Shown here piece by piece: positions 3,708 to 26,323 of a stretch of DNA of 64,000 bases. Position numbers and translations under genes: made by a program. The DNA comes from Streptomyces humicola (GTDB lineage: Bacteria > Actinomycetota > Actinomycetes > Streptomycetales > Streptomycetaceae), in NCBI RefSeq assembly GCF_024436035.1, contig NZ_JANFNG010000018.1, forward strand, positions 1-64,000, written 5' to 3'. Position 1 is the first letter of the stretch. Each line of letters starts with the position of its first letter. The notes beneath the pieces are model-generated. The model did no database searches, was not told where the DNA came from, and worked only from the letters and a program-made list of their open reading frames with translations.

Positions 3708-4139
3708 GAGCCCGCGTCACCGCGGAGATCGCCGAACGGAGCTCGGTGCCCCAGTCTGCGTCCGCAGGTCCGTTCCCGCTCGGTCTCCTGGCGCAAGAAA
3801 ACCGTCAATGTTCAGCGGCCGCCGCGTCGGAACGAAGGAGTGAACGAGGGAGTGAACGAAGGAATGGAACGGCGTGATCGTGCTCCCGCAAGACCAGGCG
3901 GTGCGGGCTGCGGCCGGTGATCCCCAGGCGTACGCGGTGCGCCGCAGCGCCCACCGTGCCCGGTCAACGGCGCCGGGGCCGCGCCGCACGGGGCAACAGC
4001 GCCAGTCGCAGGCTGGCGTGGACCACGGGTTTTCGGCTGCACCGCGAAACCGTGCACTGCTTCGCCCGCGCGGATGGGGACCGCGCCGCGACGTACACTG
4101 GACGGCTGTTGTCCGACCAGTCCAGGAGTCTGTTCCGTC
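3708..4139. other. divergent intergenic region
   Basis: This 432-bp gap lies between the divergent permease and RNA methyltransferase genes and must hold both promoters. It contains three tandem 12-bp repeats at 3830-3865 and the AGGAG ribosome site at 4124-4128. I see no supported gene in it. Confidence 0.6.
3830..3865. repeat. three tandem 12-bp repeats
   Basis: The units GAACGAAGGAGT, GAACGAGGGAGT and GAACGAAGGAAT follow one another without gaps, each differing from the first by one base. Each carries a purine-rich GAAGGAG-like core followed by GTG or ATG, resembling repeated ribosome sites, but no open frame of convincing length follows. Confidence 0.75.
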
Positions 4140-17244: not shown

Positions 17245-17306
17245 TTCCAAGCGCCGATGCCGGAGTCGGCCGATGTCACTTGTACCGCTGCGACCGAGGA
17301 GCCTCC

Positions 17307-18308
17307 ATGGCCATCGACCTCACGGGCCGCCACTTCCTCAAGGAGCTCGACTTCACGCCCGACGAGTTCCGCCACCTGGTGGAGCTGGCCGCGCAGCTGA
17401 AGGCGGCCAAGCGCGCCGGCGCCGAGAAGCAGTGGCTCAAGGGCCGCAACATCGCGTTGATCTTCGAGAAGACCTCGACGCGCACCCGTTGCTCCTTCGA
17501 GGTCGCGGCCGCCGACCAGGGCGCCTCGACCACCTACCTTGACTCGCGTGGCTCGCAGATCGGCCACAAGGAGTCGGTGAAGGACACCGCGCGTGTGCTC
17601 GGCCGGATGTTCGACGGCATCGAGTACCGGGGCAGCGGCCAGGATGTCGTCGAGGAGCTCGCCGCCTACGCGGGCGTGCCGGTCTGGAACGGCCTGACCG
17701 ACGAGTGGCATCCGACGCAGATGCTCGCCGACGTGCTCACCATGACCGAGCACACCACCAAGCCGCTCGGCGACATCGCGTACGCCTACCTCGGCGACGC
17801 CCGCTCCAACATGGGCAACTCGCTGCTGGTCACCGGTGCCCTGCTCGGCATGGACGTACGCATCGTGGCGCCCGAGCAGCTGTGGCCTGCGCAGCCGGTG
17901 ATCGCTGAGGCGCGCCGGCTCGCGGCGTCCGGCGGGGCGCGGATCACTCTCACCGAGGACGTGGCCGAGGGCGTGCGCGGTGCCGACTACGTGCACACCG
18001 ATGTGTGGGTCTCGATGGGCGAGCCGAAGGAGGTGTGGGACGAGCGGATCTCTCTGCTGCACCCCTATGCGGTGACCATGGACGTGATACGGACCACCGG
18101 CAACCCCGACGTGAAGTTCATGCACTGCCTGCCCGCCTTCCACGACCTGGGCACGCAGATCGGCCGTGAGATCCACGAGCGCCACGGCCTGACCTCGCTC
18201 GAAGTGACCGACGACGTCTTCGAGTCCGAGCACGCGGTCGTCTTCGACCAGGCGGAGAACCGGATGCACACCATCAAGGCGGTCCTCGTCGCCACGCTGG
18301 GAGGGTGA
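17307..18308 (+). CDS. argF: ornithine carbamoyltransferase
   Basis: A 333-residue transcarbamylase joining ornithine and carbamoyl phosphate to citrulline. It has the carbamoyl-phosphate loop STRTRCSF (about 56-63), SMGEP and the ornithine-side HCLPAFHD with its conserved Cys. ATG at 17307 with GAGGAG upstream. Position next to arcA suggests a catabolic ArcB. However, in Streptomyces the main arg cluster usually lacks argF, and this locus is thought to be the only OTC, hence also biosynthetic. A separate promoter region upstream fits independent control. Confidence 0.93.
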
Positions 18309-18337
18309 CGCACGCGGAACCGCCTATCTCGTACTCG

Positions 18338-18349
18338 TGACGGAAGTCA
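18338..18349 (+). promoter_or_regulatory. candidate PaaX-family operator 1 (TGAC-N4-GTCA)
   Basis: TGACGGAAGTCA is the core of an 18-bp perfect palindrome (TCGTGAC-GGAA-GTCACGA, 18335-18352), 70 bp upstream of the hydratase start. It shares 12 of 16 positions with a site in the divergent ligase/dehydrogenase promoter (24077-24092). Confidence 0.5.
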
Positions 18350-18418
18350 CGAAGCAGTGATAGCTTCGCAGGGCAGGCGTTCGCCGTCCCACTCGTCCCG
18401 GCGAAGGAGAGCGTGCCC

Positions 18419-19246
18419 ATGAGTCCGATGCTTGGCTCCGCGACCATCACCGAGGAGTGGCGGCACCTGCTCCTGGAGCGGGCAGGCGGCATCACCACCG
18501 TCACGCTCAACCGGCCCGACAAGCTCAACGCGCTCACCTTCGGCGCCTACGCCGACCTGCGGGACCTCCTCGCCGAGCTCGCCCTCGACGGGCAGACGCG
18601 CGTCCTGGTCCTCGGCGGGGCGGGCCGGGGCTTCTGCTCCGGCGGCGACGTCGACGAGATCATCGGTGCGACGCTGGCCATGGGCGCCTGCGACCTGTTG
18701 GACTTCACCCGGATGACCGGCCAGGTGGTGCGGGCGCTGCGCGAGTGCCCGTTCCCGGTGATCGCCGCCGTGCACGGGGTCGCCGCCGGTGCAGGCGCCG
18801 TCCTGGCGCTGGCGTCGGACTTCCGGGTCGTCGAGCGCTCCGCCCGCTTCGCCTTCCTCTTTACCAAGGTCGGGCTCTCCGGCGCCGACATGGGTGCCGC
18901 ATATCTGCTGCCGCGCGTGGTGGGCCTCGGCCACGCCACACGGCTGCTGATGCTGGGCGACCCGGTCGACGCCGACCAGGCCGAACGTCTCGGCCTGGTG
19001 AGCGAGCCGGCCGAGGACGGCCGGGCCGACGCCGTCGCGGCAGCCCTCGCGCAGCGGCTCGCCGAAGGGCCCGCGCTGGCGTACCGGCAGACCAAGGCGC
19101 TGCTCACCGCGGAGCTCGACATGCCGCTCGGCGCATCGGTCGAGATGGACGCGGCCACCCAGGCGCTGCTGATGACCAGCGGCGACTACGCGGAATTCCA
19201 TGCCGCGTTCACGGGCAAACGCCCGCCCAAGTGGGAAGGGCGCTGA
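18419..19246 (+). CDS. enoyl-CoA hydratase/isomerase family protein
   Basis: A 275-residue crotonase-fold protein. The oxyanion-hole segments are RGFCSGGDVDE (about 71-81) and AAVHGVAAGAGAVLALASDFRV. The second catalytic Glu of true hydratases is not at its usual place (FTKVGLSGADMGAAYLLP has Ser-Gly-Ala-Asp), as in ring-opening or specialised crotonases. ATG 18419 is preferred to GTG 18413 on spacing from GAAGGAGA. The next gene follows by 2 bp, so both act in one pathway, probably on ring-derived CoA esters. Confidence 0.87.
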   Translation: MSPMLGSATITEEWRHLLLERAGGITTVTLNRPDKLNALTFGAYADLRDLLAELALDGQTRVLVLGGAGRGFCSGGDVDEIIGATLAMGACDLLDFTRMTGQVVRALRECPFPVIAAVHGVAAGAGAVLALASDFRVVERSARFAFLFTKVGLSGADMGAAYLLPRVVGLGHATRLLMLGDPVDADQAERLGLVSEPAEDGRADAVAAALAQRLAEGPALAYRQTKALLTAELDMPLGASVEMDAATQALLMTSGDYAEFHAAFTGKRPPKWEGR

Positions 19247-19248
19247 CC

Positions 19249-21543
19249 GTGCCGCCCGGACGGCCGGCGGCACGGATCGCGGTGATCGGTGCCGGGCCCG
19301 GCGGTCTGTACGCCGCGGCCCTGCTCAAACGGCTCGACCCGCAGCGCGAGATCACCGTCTGGGAGCGCAACCCTCCCGACGACACCTTCGGCTTCGGCGT
19401 CGTGCTCTCCGACGAGACGCTCGGCGGGATCGAACACGCCGACCCGGTGGTGTACCGGGCACTGCAGACCGAGTTCACCCGCTGGGACGCGATCGACGTC
19501 GCGCATCGGGGCACCGTGGTCCGCTCCGGCGGCCACGGCTTCGCCGCAGTGAGCCGGCGACGCCTCCTCGCCCTGCTGCAGGACCGCTGCCGGGACCTCG
19601 GCGTGGCCCTGCGCTTCGGCCTTCCCGCCCCCGACGCCGCCGAACTGGCGCAGCGCCACGACCTGGTGATCGCCGCCGACGGCGTGGGCAGCCCCACCCG
19701 CACCGCACACGCACACGCCCTCGCGCCACAGCTCACCACCCACCGCTGCCGCTACATCTGGCTGGCAACCGACCTCGTTCTGGACGCCTTCCGCTTCGAG
19801 ATCGCCGAAACCCCGGCCGGGGTGATACAGGCGCACGGCTACCCCTACCGGCCGGACGCGAGCACCTTCATCGTCGAGATGCGCGAGGAGGTGTGGCGCC
19901 GCGCCGGCCTGGACCTGCTCGACGAGCAGGGGTCGATCGCCGCATGCGAGAAGGTCTTCGCCGAACTGCTGCGCGGCCACCGACTGCACGGCAACCGCTC
20001 CCACTGGACCGCCTTCACCACCGTGACCAATGCGATCTGGCACACCGGCCGCATCGTGCTGCTGGGCGACGCCGCCCACACCGCGCACTTCTCCATCGGA
20101 TCTGGCACCAAGCTCGCCATGGAAGACGCGCTGGCGCTCGCCGCCTGCCTCGAAGAACACGACACGGTCGAGGCGGCGTTGACGGCCTACGAGGACGAGC
20201 GGCGGCCGGTGGTGGAGTCCACCCAGCGCGCCGCCGACGCCAGCCGGGAGTGGTTCGAGGAGCTGGCGCAGTACACTGACCAGCCGATGCGCCAGTTCGC
20301 CTTCAACCTTCTCACCCGCAGCCGCCGCGTCACCCACGACAACCTCCGGTTGCGCGATCCCGCCTTCACCGCCGCCGTCGAGGCCGACTTCGGCGCCGAC
20401 GACGGCACGCCGCCGATGTTCACCCCTTTCACGCTGCGCGGACTGACCCTGCACAACCGGGTCGTGGTCTCGCCCATGGACATGTACTCGGCGACCGACG
20501 GCACACCCGGCGACTTCCACCTCGTCCACCTCGGGACCCGCGCGCTGGGCGGTGCCGGCCTGGTGATGACCGAGATGGTCTGCGTCAGCCCGCAGGGGCG
20601 GATCACTCCCGGCTGCGCGGGGCTGTACACCGACGAGCACGAGGCCGCCTGGCGCCGGATCGTCGACTTCGCGCACGCGCAGTCCGGCGCGGCGATCGGG
20701 CTCCAGATCGGGCACAGCGGCCGCAAGGGCTCGACGCGGCTGATGTGGGAGGGCATCGACGAGCCCCTGCCCGACGGCAACTGGCCGCTTGTCGCCGCCT
20801 CCCCGCTGCCGTACCGGTCCGGCGTCAACCAGGTGCCTCACGAGCTGGACGAGGACGGACTCGCGCGGATCCGCGAGGAGTTCACCGAGGCTGCGCGGCG
20901 CGGGGCACGCGCAGGATTCGACCTGCTCGAACTGCACTGCGCCCACGGCTACCTGCTCTCCGGCTTCCTCTCGCCGCTCACCAACCGCCGGACCGACCGC
21001 TACGGCGGCGACCTGGCCGGACGGCTCCGCTTCCCGCTCGACGTCTTCGACGCCGTACGGTCGGTGTGGCCGCAGGAACGGCCCATGACGGTGCGGATCT
21101 CCGCAACCGACTGGGTGGACGGCGGCACCACCGCCGCCGACGCGGTCGCCGTCGCCCGTGCGTTCGCCGAGCACGGCGCCGACGCCATCGACGTCTCCAC
21201 CGGCCAGGTCGTCCCCGACGACCGTCCCGCCTTCGGCCGCTCGTACCAGGCCCCCTATGCCGACCGGATCCGGAACCTCACCGGCATCCCCGTGATCGCG
21301 GTGGGCGCCATCTCCTCCTGGGACGACGTCAACTCCCTGATCCTCGCCGGACGCGCCGACCTGTGTGCGCTCGCCCGCCCTCATCTGTACGACCCCAACT
21401 GGACGTTGCATGCCGCCGCCGAACAGGGCTACGCCGGTCCGGGGATCAGCTGGCCGCTCCCGTACCAGGCGGGCAGCCGCCGCCCGCCCACCGGCCGTAC
21501 CGACGGCCCCAAGCCGCGCCTGACACTTGGAGAAATGACGTAA
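19249..21543 (+). CDS. bifunctional salicylyl-/2-aminobenzoyl-CoA monooxygenase-reductase
   Basis: A 764-residue fusion. Residues 1-~385 are a group A FAD monooxygenase (GAGPGG at 14-19; GDAAHTAHFSIGSGTKLAMED near 272-290). Residues ~390-764 are an Old Yellow Enzyme-type reductase (PMDMYS, QIGHSGRKGS, HCAHGYLLSGFLSPLTNRRTD, VGAISS). This is the layout of Azoarcus 2-aminobenzoyl-CoA monooxygenase/reductase and of proteins annotated salicylyl-CoA 5-hydroxylase in Streptomyces. It hydroxylates, then reduces, the aromatic CoA ester to a non-aromatic product. GTG start 2 bp after the hydratase stop. Anthranilate is the favoured substrate because of the ligase and RidA nearby; salicylate remains possible. 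Confidence 0.88.
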   Translation: MPPGRPAARIAVIGAGPGGLYAAALLKRLDPQREITVWERNPPDDTFGFGVVLSDETLGGIEHADPVVYRALQTEFTRWDAIDVAHRGTVVRSGGHGFAAVSRRRLLALLQDRCRDLGVALRFGLPAPDAAELAQRHDLVIAADGVGSPTRTAHAHALAPQLTTHRCRYIWLATDLVLDAFRFEIAETPAGVIQAHGYPYRPDASTFIVEMREEVWRRAGLDLLDEQGSIAACEKVFAELLRGHRLHGNRSHWTAFTTVTNAIWHTGRIVLLGDAAHTAHFSIGSGTKLAMEDALALAACLEEHDTVEAALTAYEDERRPVVESTQRAADASREWFEELAQYTDQPMRQFAFNLLTRSRRVTHDNLRLRDPAFTAAVEADFGADDGTPPMFTPFTLRGLTLHNRVVVSPMDMYSATDGTPGDFHLVHLGTRALGGAGLVMTEMVCVSPQGRITPGCAGLYTDEHEAAWRRIVDFAHAQSGAAIGLQIGHSGRKGSTRLMWEGIDEPLPDGNWPLVAASPLPYRSGVNQVPHELDEDGLARIREEFTEAARRGARAGFDLLELHCAHGYLLSGFLSPLTNRRTDRYGGDLAGRLRFPLDVFDAVRSVWPQERPMTVRISATDWVDGGTTAADAVAVARAFAEHGADAIDVSTGQVVPDDRPAFGRSYQAPYADRIRNLTGIPVIAVGAISSWDDVNSLILAGRADLCALARPHLYDPNWTLHAAAEQGYAGPGISWPLPYQAGSRRPPTGRTDGPKPRLTLGEMT

Positions 21544-21548
21544 CGTCA
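21536..21548. promoter_or_regulatory. palindrome TGACGTAACGTCA over convergent stop codons
   Basis: A 13-bp perfect inverted repeat contains the TAA of the monooxygenase gene and the TGA of the convergent paaX-type gene. It has the same TGAC...GTCA ends as the two promoter palindromes of this cluster, with a 5-base spacer. It may be a third regulator site, or chance. Confidence 0.35.
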
Positions 21549-22364
21549 GGCTGGAGTGTGCACGAATGCGGCCCCGGCGTCCCGCAGCCGCTTGTGCAGC
21601 GCCGTGAACACCTCGGCGGCGCGCCCGCCCGGCCAGTGCGCGGGCAGCAGCTGCGCCGGCAGGCCCGGATCCGCGTACGGCAGCCGCCGCCAGGCGTCGA
21701 GCGCCCGCAGATAGTCGGGAAACGCCTCCCGCGGCGTCACCGACGACCGGCGTGACCAGCGCTCCAGCACCGGCTCATGAGCGTCGAGGAAGTCACGGTG
21801 CAGTGCGGCGATCGCCTCTAGATCCCACCACCGCCGCACTGCGCTCCGCGTCGGCTCGAAACCCAGATGCGTCCCGCGGAACAGGTCGACATATGTGTCG
21901 AGTTCCAGCCGCTCCAGCGTGTGCCGCGCCTCCTCGTACAGCCGGGCAGGGGCGAGCCACACCCCCGGCGCCGCTGTGCCGAACGCCAGCCGCGCCAGCC
22001 TGGAGCGCAGCAGATGCCGCTTGTGCCGCTCGCTCTCCGGCACCGAGAACACCGCGAGCACCCACCCCTCGTCGGGCGGTGAGGTGAGCGGCCGGTAGAT
22101 GCGCCGGTCGCCGTCGGCGAGCACCTGCTCCGCATCCGCCGACAGCGCGTACCCGGCGGCTCCGCCGGCCCGCGAGGGCACCAGCAGCCCGCGCCGCTTC
22201 AGCCGCGAGACCGCCGACCGCACCGACGGCGGATCGGCCCCGGCCGCACCCATCAGCCGGATGAGTGAGGCCACGTCGATCCGGCCACCGAGCTCGGCAC
22301 GTCCGTAGGCGCCGAAGAACGTCACGATCAGCGAGCCCGGCGTGCCGGCAGAGTGCCCTTCCAC
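21546..22364 (-). CDS. PaaX-family transcriptional repressor
   Basis: A 272-residue regulator with an N-terminal winged-helix domain (about 12-85, LKRRGLLVPSRAGGAAGYALS as wing), a central PaaX domain (WVLAVFSVPESERHKRHLLRSRL...GVWLAP) and a C-terminal PaaX_C segment. E. coli PaaX represses phenylacetate genes and is released by phenylacetyl-CoA. By analogy this one should sense the aromatic CoA thioester made by the adjacent ligase. GTG start at 22364 has a poor ribosome site, but the gene lies only 9 bp after the ligase stop, so translation may be coupled. Ligase and repressor form one minus-strand operon. Confidence 0.85.
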   Translation of the reverse strand: MEGHSAGTPGSLIVTFFGAYGRAELGGRIDVASLIRLMGAAGADPPSVRSAVSRLKRRGLLVPSRAGGAAGYALSADAEQVLADGDRRIYRPLTSPPDEGWVLAVFSVPESERHKRHLLRSRLARLAFGTAAPGVWLAPARLYEEARHTLERLELDTYVDLFRGTHLGFEPTRSAVRRWWDLEAIAALHRDFLDAHEPVLERWSRRSSVTPREAFPDYLRALDAWRRLPYADPGLPAQLLPAHWPGGRAAEVFTALHKRLRDAGAAFVHTPA

Positions 22365-22373
22365 GCGATCACT

Positions 22374-23996
22374 CTAGGACTGACCGAGACGGTGCACCTC
22401 GCGCAGTCTGAAGCGCTGCAGCTTGCCGGTGGGGGTGCGGGGCAGCGCGTCGAGGAAGACGATCTCGCGTGGGCACTTGTACGGGACGATCTCCTCCTTG
22501 GTGAAGTCGCGCAGCATGCGGACCGTGCGCTCACCGCGCTCCACGCCGTCGCGCAGCACCACGAACGCCTTGGCGATCTGCCCCCGCTCCTCGTCCGTTA
22601 CGCCGACGACGGCCGCCTCCCGTACGTCCGGGTGGCGCAGTAGCGCCTCCTCGACCTCCGGGGCGGCGATGTTGTACCCGGCGGAGATGATCATGTCGTC
22701 GGCGCGCGCCACGTAGTGGAAGTAGCCGTCGGCGTCCCGCACATACGTATCGCCGGTGAGATTCCAGCCGTCGCGCACGTAGTCGCGCTGGCGTTCGTCG
22801 GCGAGATAGCGGCAGCCCGTAGGCCCGCGCACGGCCAGCAGCCCCGGCTCCCCGTCGGGGACGGGACGCCCGCTCGCGTCGACGATGCGCGCCTCGTAGC
22901 CGGGCACGGGCAGGCCGGTGGAGCCGGGACGTGCGTCCTCGTCGGCGGCCGAGATGAAGATGTGCAGCATCTCCGTCGCCCCGATGCCGTTGATGAGCTT
23001 GATGCCGGTGCTCCGGTGCCAGGCGTCCCAGGTGGCGGCGGGCAGGTTCTCGCCGGCGGAGACGCAGCGCCGCAGGGACGACAGATCGCAGCCGTCCTGT
23101 TGCGCGAGCATCGCCCGGTACGCGGTCGGGGCAGTGAACAGCACGCTCACCCGGTGCCGGTCGACCGCCTCCAACAGCTGCTCGGGTCCGGCCTGTTCGA
23201 GCAGGAGCGAGGAGGCGCCGGCGCGCAAGGGGAAGATCACCAGTCCGCCGAGGCCGAAGGTGAAACCGAGCGGCGGGCTCCCGGTGAAGACGTCGGACGG
23301 CAGCGGCCGCAGCACCCGTGCCGAGAAGGTGTCGGCGATCGCCAGTACATCGCGGTGGAAGTGCATGCAACCCTTCGGCCGTCCGGTGGTGCCGGAGGTG
23401 AAGGCGATCAGCGCCACGTCGTCGGCGGAGGTGGCCACCGCCGGGAAGCGGCCGGGCCTGCCGTGCGCCAGCCGCACCAGGTCGTCCGGTCCCTCGCCGC
23501 CGTACGCGGTGATGCGCAACCCGGGTACGTCGGCCTTCACCAGGTCGTCAAGCGACCGGATGTCGCACAGCGCATGACCCACCCGCGCGATCCGGCAGAT
23601 CACCGCCAGCTCACGGGAGCGCTGCGCGGCCAGCACGGTCACCGCCACCGCGCCCGCCTTCATCACCGCGAACCAGCACGCCACAAGCCACGGCGTGGTC
23701 GGCCCGCGCAACAGCACCCGGTTGCCGGGCACCACGCCGAGGTCGTCGGTGAGCACGTGGGCAATGCGGTCCGAGGCGGCACGCAGATCCTCGTACGACC
23801 AGACCTCACCGCCCGGCATCCGCAGGCATGGCCGGTGCGGGCCGAAGCGCTCCGCGCTCGCGTCCAGCACCTCGCTGCCGCAGTTGAGCCGTTCCGGCAC
23901 AGCCTGCCCGAGGGGCAGCAGGTCGGGCCACTGATCCCAGGGCGGCAGGCTGTCGCGTGGGAAGGTGTCCAGATGGGCGGATGGCAGCAGGTCCAT
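22374..23996 (-). CDS. aromatic acid CoA ligase (2-aminobenzoate-CoA ligase-like)
   Basis: A 540-residue ANL-superfamily AMP-forming ligase. The N-terminus PSAHLDTFPRDSLPPWDQWP and ERLNC are characteristic of benzoate/2-aminobenzoate-CoA ligases. The ATP loop FTSGTTGRPKG is at 199-209, the adenylation motif is NGIGATEML, and the catalytic C-terminal lysine is K525 in PTGKLQ. It would activate anthranilate (or salicylate) for the monooxygenase encoded convergently. The ATG at 23996 lies about 120 bp from the divergent dehydrogenase start. Its putative -35 TTGACT (24090-24085) overlaps operator 2. Confidence 0.87.
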   Translation of the reverse strand: MDLLPSAHLDTFPRDSLPPWDQWPDLLPLGQAVPERLNCGSEVLDASAERFGPHRPCLRMPGGEVWSYEDLRAASDRIAHVLTDDLGVVPGNRVLLRGPTTPWLVACWFAVMKAGAVAVTVLAAQRSRELAVICRIARVGHALCDIRSLDDLVKADVPGLRITAYGGEGPDDLVRLAHGRPGRFPAVATSADDVALIAFTSGTTGRPKGCMHFHRDVLAIADTFSARVLRPLPSDVFTGSPPLGFTFGLGGLVIFPLRAGASSLLLEQAGPEQLLEAVDRHRVSVLFTAPTAYRAMLAQQDGCDLSSLRRCVSAGENLPAATWDAWHRSTGIKLINGIGATEMLHIFISAADEDARPGSTGLPVPGYEARIVDASGRPVPDGEPGLLAVRGPTGCRYLADERQRDYVRDGWNLTGDTYVRDADGYFHYVARADDMIISAGYNIAAPEVEEALLRHPDVREAAVVGVTDEERGQIAKAFVVLRDGVERGERTVRMLRDFTKEEIVPYKCPREIVFLDALPRTPTGKLQRFRLREVHRLGQS

Positions 23997-24077
23997 GGCG
24001 GGTGCGCCCCTTTGCGCCGGTCCCGTTGACTTATGGCCGTACGAACCGTGGAATGCCGAATCAGCGTAACGTGATGG

Positions 24078-24089
24078 TGACGACAGTCA
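24078..24089. promoter_or_regulatory. candidate PaaX-family operator 2 in divergent promoter (TGAC-N4-GTCA)
   Basis: TGACGACAGTCA sits between the divergent ligase and acyl-CoA dehydrogenase genes. Its right half overlaps a minus-strand TTGACT (-35-like), with TACGCT 16 nt downstream as a possible -10. A second, weaker inverted repeat CGTAAC-N6-GTGACG (24065-24082) overlaps it. Binding here would control both directions. Confidence 0.5.
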
Positions 24090-24116
24090 ACAGCTCGCGA
24101 TACGAGGAGACCGTAG

Positions 24117-25232
24117 GTGCCCGCATTCGCGCTCGACCCGGATCAGCTCACCTGGTGTGCCCAGATCCGCACCCAGGCCGCCACCCGGCTGCGCCCGCTC
24201 GCCGAGGCGGGTGAACCCGGCCGCGTCAACCGCCCGCTCCTCGCCGCGCTCGCCGAACTCGGGCTGCTGGAACGGCTCTTCCCGTGGGGCGGGCGCCCCT
24301 CCGCCACCGATCTGTGCCTGTTGCGTGAATCGCTCGCCCGCGAGTGCGTCGAGGCCGAGACCGCCCTCGCACTGCAGGGCCTCGGCGCTCACCCGGTCCT
24401 CCGTTCGCCGAACCTCGCCGCGCGCTGGATCCCCGAGGTCGTCGCCGGACGGGCGGTGCCCGCCTTCGCCCTCACCGAACCGTCGGCAGGATCCGACGCG
24501 GCCGCCCTCGATCTCAAGGCAGCGCCGGACGGGGACGGTTGGCGGCTCAGCGGCGAGAAGTGCTGGATCTCCAATGCCCCCGAAGCCGACTTCTACACCG
24601 TCTTCGCGCGCACCACACACGGCGCGGGAGCCCGCGGGGTGACCGCCTTCCTGCTCCCCGCCGACCGGCCGGGCGTGACCGGCGAGCATCTCGACATGCT
24701 CTCGCCGCACCCGATCGGCCGGCTGCTCCTCGACGAGGTGCCCGTCGGCCCGCAGGACGTGCTCGGCGAACGGGACCGCGGGTTCCGGGTCGCCATGGAG
24801 ACGCTCAATCTCTTCCGGCCGAGCGTCGGGGCTTTCGCGGTCGGCATGGCACAGGCCGCCCAGGACGCGGCGATCGCGCATGCGGGCCGGCGCACCGCGT
24901 TCGGCGGTCCGCTGAAGGAGCTGCAGTCCGTCGGCCACACCCTCGCCGAGATGGCCACCCGTACCGAGGCGGCACGGCTGCTGGTGTACGCGGCGGCCGC
25001 GGCCTACGACACCGGAGCCCCCGACATCGCCAAGCGCTCGGCCATGGCGAAGCTCTTCGCGACCGAGACCGCCCAGTACGTCATCGACTCCGCCGTACAG
25101 CTGCACGGCGCCCGCGCCCTGCAACGCGGCCATCTCCTCGAACACCTTTACCGCGAGGTCCGCGCACCCCGCATCTACGAAGGCGCGACCGAGGTCCAGC
25201 GCACCATCATCGCCAAGGAGCTGTACCGGTGA
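24117..25232 (+). CDS. acyl-CoA dehydrogenase
   Basis: A 371-residue FAD enzyme oxidising an acyl- or cyclohexenyl-CoA. PAFALTEPSAGSDAA (about 119-133) and KCWISNAPEADFYTVFA are the FAD/substrate motifs, RTAFGGPLKELQSVGHTLAEM follows, and QLHGARALQRGHLLEHLYREVRAPRIYEGATEVQR gives the active-site glutamate region EGATE. The GTG at 24117 has GAGGAGA 7 nt upstream. It overlaps the next gene by GTGA. In the pathway it probably re-oxidises the reduced ring product before cleavage. Confidence 0.9.
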   Translation: MPAFALDPDQLTWCAQIRTQAATRLRPLAEAGEPGRVNRPLLAALAELGLLERLFPWGGRPSATDLCLLRESLARECVEAETALALQGLGAHPVLRSPNLAARWIPEVVAGRAVPAFALTEPSAGSDAAALDLKAAPDGDGWRLSGEKCWISNAPEADFYTVFARTTHGAGARGVTAFLLPADRPGVTGEHLDMLSPHPIGRLLLDEVPVGPQDVLGERDRGFRVAMETLNLFRPSVGAFAVGMAQAAQDAAIAHAGRRTAFGGPLKELQSVGHTLAEMATRTEAARLLVYAAAAAYDTGAPDIAKRSAMAKLFATETAQYVIDSAVQLHGARALQRGHLLEHLYREVRAPRIYEGATEVQRTIIAKELYR

Positions 25233-25627
25233 CGCCCGAAAGGATCAACCCGCCCGACCTCTCCCCGCCCACCGGCTTCAGCCATGCCGTCACCGCGACC
25301 GGCGGCCGCTTGGTCTTCCTCGCGGGCCAGACCGCGCTCGACGGCGACGGCAAGGTCGTCGGCGACACCCTGCCCGAACAGTTCGCCCGGGCGCTGGCCA
25401 ATCTGCTCCATGCGCTGTCGGCCGCCGGGGGCACCGCCGCCGATCTCGTGCGCGTCACCGTGTACACCACCGATGTCCCCGCCTACCGCGCCGCGGCCCG
25501 CCGGCTCGGCGCGATCTGGCGCGAGTCGGCGGGCCGTGACTATCCGGCGATGGCGGTGATCGGTGTGGTGCGGCTCTGGGACGAGCAGGCGTTGGTGGAG
25601 CTGGACGGCATCGCCGTCATCGACTGA
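25229..25627 (+). CDS. RidA-family (YjgF/YER057c/UK114) deaminase
   Basis: A 132-residue trimeric RidA-fold protein that hydrolyses enamine/imine intermediates to ketones and ammonia. FLAGQTALDGDGKVVG, DLVRVTVYTTD and PAMAVIGVVRL match the family. The arginine normally contacting the substrate carboxylate appears to be in GVVRLWDE. Coupled to the dehydrogenase gene (GTGA overlap). In this setting it fits removal of the amino group of an anthranilate-derived ring intermediate, an inference from context. Confidence 0.88.
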   Translation: MTPERINPPDLSPPTGFSHAVTATGGRLVFLAGQTALDGDGKVVGDTLPEQFARALANLLHALSAAGGTAADLVRVTVYTTDVPAYRAAARRLGAIWRESAGRDYPAMAVIGVVRLWDEQALVELDGIAVID

Positions 25628-25717: not shown

Positions 25718-26323
25718 ATGACCACCTACGGCCTGCTGACCTTCGACGGTGCCGAGGAGTTGGACTTCACCGGGCCGTGGGAGGTGTTCACCGCCTCCTC
25801 CATGCTTCGCGACCACGCCGACACCGTGCTGCTCATCGCCGAACACCCGGGCGCCGTCCGCTGCAACAAGGGCATGCGGGTCCTGCCGGACCACACCCTC
25901 AACGATCACCCTCCGCTGGACGTTCTGCTGGTCCCGGGGGGCAACGGGACCCGTCGCGAAGTGTCCAACCCCGTACTCATCGACTGGATCCGCAAGACCG
26001 CCGCCAACGCCGCCTGGACCACCAGCGTGTGCACCGGAGCCCTGCTCCTGCACGAGGCAGGCCCGGCCCGCGGCCGCAGGGTCGCAACCCACTACCTGTT
26101 CGAGGACGCCCTGCAGGCCAGGGGCGACATCACCGTGGTCCGCGATGCCCGCTACATCGTCGACGGGAACCTCGTCACCAGCCAGGGTGTCTCAGCCGGA
26201 ATTGATATGGCCCTGTGGCTCATCGGCCGCCTCCATGGCCGCGACCACGCTCGCGCCGTCCGCAGGTACATCCAGTACGAGCCCGCGCCGCCCCACCTCG
26301 CCGACGAGCCGGTCGCCGGCTGA
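25718..26323 (+). CDS. DJ-1/PfpI family protein (isonitrile hydratase-like)
   Basis: A 201-residue DJ-1/PfpI fold with the nucleophile elbow TSVCTGALLL (Cys105) and PGGNGTRRE. Members close to this arrangement include isonitrile hydratase (InhA) and the amidase-like domain of AraC regulators. Here no helix-turn-helix domain follows, so it is a stand-alone enzyme. ATG at 25718 with CAGGGAG upstream. It lies 90 bp after ridA on the same strand and could belong to the aromatic operon or be independent. Substrate unknown. Confidence 0.83.
   Translation: MTTYGLLTFDGAEELDFTGPWEVFTASSMLRDHADTVLLIAEHPGAVRCNKGMRVLPDHTLNDHPPLDVLLVPGGNGTRREVSNPVLIDWIRKTAANAAWTTSVCTGALLLHEAGPARGRRVATHYLFEDALQARGDITVVRDARYIVDGNLVTSQGVSAGIDMALWLIGRLHGRDHARAVRRYIQYEPAPPHLADEPVAG

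Follow-up and report, generated by a model that had tools for sequence, protein, structure and literature searches.

A conserved 38-bp two-tier dyad is the predicted operator of the PaaX-type regulator in actinobacterial aryl-CoA clusters

Introduction

The closest described system is the phenylacetate (paa) cluster of Escherichia coli, whose regulator PaaX responds to phenylacetyl-CoA and has the operator TGATTC(N27)GAATCA, 39 bp end to end (PMC9493321). PaaR, a TetR-family protein of phenylacetate clusters, likewise acts as a repressor of an aryl-CoA pathway and responds to the aryl-CoA, but it belongs to a protein family unrelated to PaaX, and its operator is 15 bp long, such as ACCGACCGGTCGGTT in Burkholderia (PMC9493321). 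According to a 2022 review, no structure of a PaaX–operator complex was known (PMC9493321). For gene content, the nearest relatives of the cluster studied here are the 2-aminobenzoyl-CoA monooxygenase/reductase and salicylyl-CoA 5-hydroxylase pathways, which share its fusion monooxygenase, ligase, hydratase and acyl-CoA dehydrogenase genes. In the open-access literature searched, we found no operator for a cluster of this type. The initial annotation of this DNA had considered the site undescribed to the best of its knowledge, and the same search returned no description of an actinobacterial PaaX operator; most subscription papers lay outside its scope, and an earlier account is possible.

Results

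An aryl-CoA cluster encoding a PaaX-type regulator

The window is a stretch of 64,000 nucleotides from Streptomyces humicola, and its aryl-CoA cluster comprises the following genes, with one neighbor upstream:

17280–18308: ornithine carbamoyltransferase gene, just upstream of the hydratase operon
18413–19246, + strand: enoyl-CoA hydratase family gene (NF006107, 378.6 bits; cut-off 330)
19249–21543, + strand: FAD monooxygenase/old-yellow-enzyme fusion (NF006101, 1203 bits; cut-off 1078; Pfam Oxidored_FMN and FAD_binding_3)
21546–22364, – strand: PaaX-type regulator (Pfam PaaX, PaaX_M and PaaX_C; helix VRSAVSRLK, residues 48–56)
22374–23996, – strand: benzoate-CoA-ligase-like AMP ligase (TIGR02262, 347 bits, below the cut-off of 375)
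24117–25232, + strand: acyl-CoA dehydrogenase (Pfam Acyl-CoA_dh_1/M/N)
25232–25627, + strand: RidA-family protein gene (Pfam Ribonuc_L-PSP), overlapping the dehydrogenase stop

The fusion monooxygenase is of the 2-aminobenzoyl-CoA monooxygenase/reductase or salicylyl-CoA 5-hydroxylase type, the family covering both; RidA and the non-aromatic CoA enzymes in the cluster appear to favor anthraniloyl-CoA as the substrate type. The ligase gene lies 9 bp upstream of paaX, and this gap is mostly below 80 bp in 70 loci; the two genes presumably form one operon. A DJ-1/PfpI-like gene (25718–26323) is located just 3' of RidA, with a counterpart in one of 80 related loci (L012), elsewhere in the locus.

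The 21546–22364 product carries all three domains by which membership of the PaaX family is defined (PF07848, PF20803 and PF08223, corresponding to an N-terminal wHTH, a Cas2-like middle domain and PaaX_C), each scoring above its cut-off. Its AF2 model (mean pLDDT 83) places the wHTH recognition helix at residues 45–57 and has E. coli PaaX (8a39) as its best solved match (E 1.9e-14, TM 0.79), indicating the same fold. By comparison, the protein scores 148.7 bits against the PaaX equivalog model TIGR02277, below the cut-off of 264.55.

Like E. coli PaaX, the regulator is associated with a catabolic cluster that encodes an aryl-CoA ligase, is predicted here to be an autoregulated repressor, and has a long-spaced predicted operator. 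The pathways differ, as do the recognition helices (VRSAVSRLK in the window, VRTALFRLN in E. coli) and the operators: TGATTC-N27-GAATCA in E. coli stands against a 38-bp TATCnCG/TGAC-N4-GTCA dyad in the window. No paaABCDE-type epoxidase genes neighbor the regulator gene; its neighbors encode the hydratase, fusion monooxygenase, ligase, dehydrogenase and RidA. TGATTC is absent from both window promoters, and the two-tier dyad was not found at the E. coli K-12 paa promoters, where exact TGATTC-N27-GAATCA was not found either, only half-sites. The half-site consensus of E. coli PaaX is CGYGWT. Its resemblance to the outer arm CGYGATA of the dyad is taken here as a lead only.

Architecture of the two predicted operators

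The initial annotation had pointed to three TGAC-N4/5-GTCA palindromes as shared operators, and all three are present in the window: TGACGGAAGTCA (18338–18349), TGACGACAGTCA (24078–24089) and the N5-spaced TGACGTAACGTCA (21536–21548). The first two agree at 12 of 16 positions, as had been claimed, in the register beginning one base 5' of TGAC. Shuffling predicts 1.1 copies of the N4 form in the window, which has three, a number reached in 9 of 100 shuffles, and 1.0 of the N5 form, which is present twice, so the N4 counts, with the window taken alone, have no significance. Genome-wide, the N4 form occurs 138 times in 7.07 Mb, a rate at which the chance of finding it in both short intergenic promoters is ~5e-6, a post-hoc figure. 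As the window counts are not unusual, the operator claim hinges on conservation.

Alignment of the sites reveals that the conserved element is a two-tier dyad, TATCnCG-N6-TGAC-N4-GTCA-N6-CGnGATA, of 38 bp. The predicted operators and putative promoters are as follows:

18325–18362, + strand: predicted hydratase-monooxygenase operator dyad, TATCTCGTACTCGTGACGGAAGTCACGAAGCAGTGATA (core 18338–18349; 16/16 dyad positions, top score in the window)
18337–18366, + strand: putative hydratase promoter, overlapped by the dyad (–35 GTGACG 18337–18342, 18-bp spacer, –10 TAGCTT 18361–18366)
24065–24102, + strand: predicted operator dyad of the divergent ligase-paaX/acyl-CoA dehydrogenase promoter (core 24078–24089; 13/16, second best in the window)
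24063–24090, – strand: putative ligase-paaX promoter (–35 TTGACT 24090–24085, 16-bp spacer, –10 TACGCT 24068–24063)

The dyad at the hydratase promoter is also the best match to the 38-bp pattern in the genome. Counted from the first T of TGAC, its outer tier consists of TATCGCG at –13 to –7 and GTGATA at +19 to +24, and the divergent promoter carries CGCGATA at +18 to +24 (24096–24102), the exact inverse of the left arm of the hydratase site; CGTAACG stands in place of its own left arm. The outer arms and the TGAC-N4-GTCA core share one common axis of symmetry.

At the hydratase promoter, the –10 element reads TA[AG]CTT across loci, with TA and TT varying little or not at all among 79 of them, and overlaps the right arm of the dyad. 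At the divergent promoter, TTGACT (AGTCAA on the + strand) falls inside the operator core, and AGCGTA, 99–100% conserved, occupies the place of the left arm and reads TACGCT on the ligase strand. Both ligase-paaX hexamers are 99–100% conserved in 67 loci, and TTGACT/TACGCT appears to be a good –35/–10 pair for ligase-paaX. No –10 element is evident for the dehydrogenase at this promoter. Since both dyads lie over promoter hexamers, a repressor bound there would be in place to obstruct RNA polymerase, and with paaX directly behind the ligase gene, the dyad over their promoter would let paaX control itself.

Conservation and locality of the dyads

One scan with the monooxygenase yielded 80 related loci, all of them Streptomyces-like. 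The loci are syntenic, and 70 of 81 have PaaX inside the cluster, contig ends cutting most of the remainder. With the window included, 79 of 80 loci have an exact TGAC-N4-GTCA ahead of the hydratase gene and 67 of 68 have one between the divergent ligase and dehydrogenase genes (expected, ~0.007 and ~0.004 per region, respectively), and the two exceptional loci have one mismatch each. The motif thus withstood the refutation test set in the initial annotation, namely its conservation at orthologous hydratase and ligase promoters. Pairwise identity is 0.78 for the hydratase 38-mers and 0.86 for the ligase/dehydrogenase 38-mers, against 0.29–0.33 in the flanks. In a blind whole-locus scan with the 16-position dyad, 79 of 81 loci had their best match at the hydratase promoter, and the divergent promoter was among the top two matches in 68; the best match elsewhere usually reached 10–11/16.

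The element is also sparse. The source genome of ~7 Mb contains only two sites with up to three mismatches to the 38-bp pattern. Across 150 Streptomycetaceae genomes, TGACGNNAGTCA-N7-GNGATA was matched ~105 times; the 68 genomes concerned have one or two matches each, mostly paired 5–9 kb apart, which fits the two promoter types, and a reversed-pattern control gave no match in the same genomes.

The palindromes at 18338 and 24078 are, on this comparative evidence, the cores of real, widely conserved 38-bp predicted operators. The earlier formulation of the site as TGAC-N4/5-GTCA holds for the N4 core at the two promoters and fails in its extent and its N5 variant: the full element is the 38-bp dyad, and the N5 form, dropped as an operator form, plays no part. 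The palindrome at 21536 marks the point where the two convergent stop-codon regions join. It is missing from the four closest relatives, and across 70 convergent regions such palindromes are sporadic and occur in long regions, as chance predicts; this site was therefore dropped as an operator for want of conservation.

Association of the dyad with PaaX

With PaaX homologues called at E up to 1e-50, the dyad occurs in 68 of the 98 Streptomycetaceae genomes with PaaX and in none of the 52 without (Fisher 3e-19, with genomes counted as independent of phylogeny). In three genomes (G372, G457 and G471) the orthologous PaaX is kept, the cluster is lost, and the dyads are lost too. In L143–L145, an orthologous PaaX (68–69%) still lies near ornithine carbamoyltransferase in loci that have lost the hydratase, monooxygenase, ligase and dehydrogenase genes. 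The motif is absent from distant PaaX-less clusters with related enzymes (L137, L138, L139 and L141).

The dyad also extends to paralogous clusters. The type B cluster encodes a ligase, a monooxygenase, fumarylacetoacetate-hydrolase-like and maleate-isomerase-like proteins and a ~50% identical PaaX, and in 27 of 29 loci its locus-best dyad precedes the ligase gene, mostly by 56–67 bp. Type B loci (L126, L157–L161) perhaps encode a gentisate-type route, and their monooxygenase promoter sometimes has a second, weaker dyad. In type C (e.g., L146–L154 and L174), a variant dyad such as TATCTCG-N6-TCACGGCCGTCA-N6-GTCAATA lies upstream of RidA, where the locus-best dyad is found in 11 of 14 loci. Over the 0.88 Mb of paralogous loci, 38 of the 39 sites matching at least 13/16 positions are no more than 250 bp ahead of the start of a cluster gene. 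One locus (L136) lacks a dyad but encodes a ligase-monooxygenase pair and a 50% PaaX whose helix is the same.

Outside Streptomycetaceae, 11 genomes have a dyad within ~10 kb of a 52–59% PaaX homologue, against 0.005 expected, and in L190–L201 the dyads lie at promoters of related gene sets. In L190–L192 and L196–L198, from another family, the best dyad is ~785–806 bp upstream of the hydratase, which suggests that an extra gene heads the hydratase operon. Two dyads stand side by side at 4050–4123 of L193, where the paaX and ligase genes diverge, and a weaker one lies at the monooxygenase.

The recognition helix co-varies with the site. VRSxxSRLK is found in nearly all dyad-linked PaaX proteins: 126 loci with this helix combine cluster genes with a dyad of at least 12/16, and 4 have a weaker or missing dyad. 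By comparison, the clusters of PaaX proteins with the E. coli-like VRTAVFRLK, only two loci (L167 and L204), lack the dyad.

Discussion

Our comparison indicates that the dyads are almost certainly bound by the PaaX-type repressor of the same cluster. The earlier proposal of a locally acting operator set for this repressor is borne out by the two sites per genome, the association with PaaX-containing genomes, the recurrence of the dyad in three PaaX-linked cluster types and the co-variation of the helix. We put at about 0.86 the probability that the PaaX-type protein is a local, autoregulated repressor of the aryl-CoA cluster that binds both dyads, keeps RNA polymerase off the promoters and lets go in response to an aryl-CoA. 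In the predicted mechanism, a PaaX dimer, or a pair of dimers, would bind each 38-bp dyad, one over the hydratase-monooxygenase promoter and one over the divergent ligase-paaX/dehydrogenase promoter, and would exclude RNA polymerase because the dyads cover the –35 and –10 elements. The ligase would then make an aryl-CoA thioester, anthraniloyl- or salicylyl-CoA, whose binding to PaaX would release it. The binding, repression, dimer stoichiometry and effector in this scheme are all predicted from sequence.

Another regulator, Crp-like or some other trans-acting factor, might own the sites, with the PaaX link being mere linkage. The Streptomyces Crp consensus is GTG-N6-GNCAC. It fits 46 of 79 hydratase sites but none of the 67 ligase/dehydrogenase sites, and Crp was rejected on this ground as reader of the whole operator. 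In type A, three clusters (L013, L056 and L142) have lost paaX and retain both sites, as a foreign owner would allow; each of these genomes has another PaaX (49–56%) with the VRS helix elsewhere, which could act on the retained sites in trans. About two sites per genome is unlike a global factor, the dyad accompanies PaaX into paralogous clusters and other families, and genomes without PaaX have no dyads, so ownership by another factor is improbable.

Slightly less probable still is that the PaaX-type protein binds the sites as an activator, or as activator and repressor. Conservation gives the position of a site and not the direction of control, but the –35/–10 region is the usual place of a repressor, and E. 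coli PaaX is a repressor that, at Px, acts by getting in the way of RNA polymerase (PMC9493321). That the palindromes reflect mere –35/–10 conservation or chance, with no operator, is highly improbable. Parts of the dyad do coincide with promoter hexamers, and the window counts alone lack significance; the core and outer arms beyond the hexamers are nevertheless nearly invariant and symmetric on one axis, and the dyad recurs ahead of a variety of genes, RidA in type C among them. Chance accounts for the third site only.

Returning to PaaX as the reader, the two tiers may correspond to separate contacts. The outer arms and the inner palindrome could engage two distinct PaaX dimers, for instance, or two DNA-reading surfaces of each dimer, in a recognition mode undescribed for the family and used by a class-wide VRSxxSRLK branch of PaaX governing anthraniloyl/salicylyl-CoA monooxygenase clusters; we give this tentative proposal slightly less than an even chance.

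For the aryl-CoA degradation clusters of many Actinomycetes, the analysis predicts the operator, the regulon and the regulator. The A-, B- and C-type sites, together with the VRTAVFRLK outliers, constitute matched pairs for working out how PaaX reads DNA, and the PaaX–operator pair could serve as an aryl-CoA sensor.
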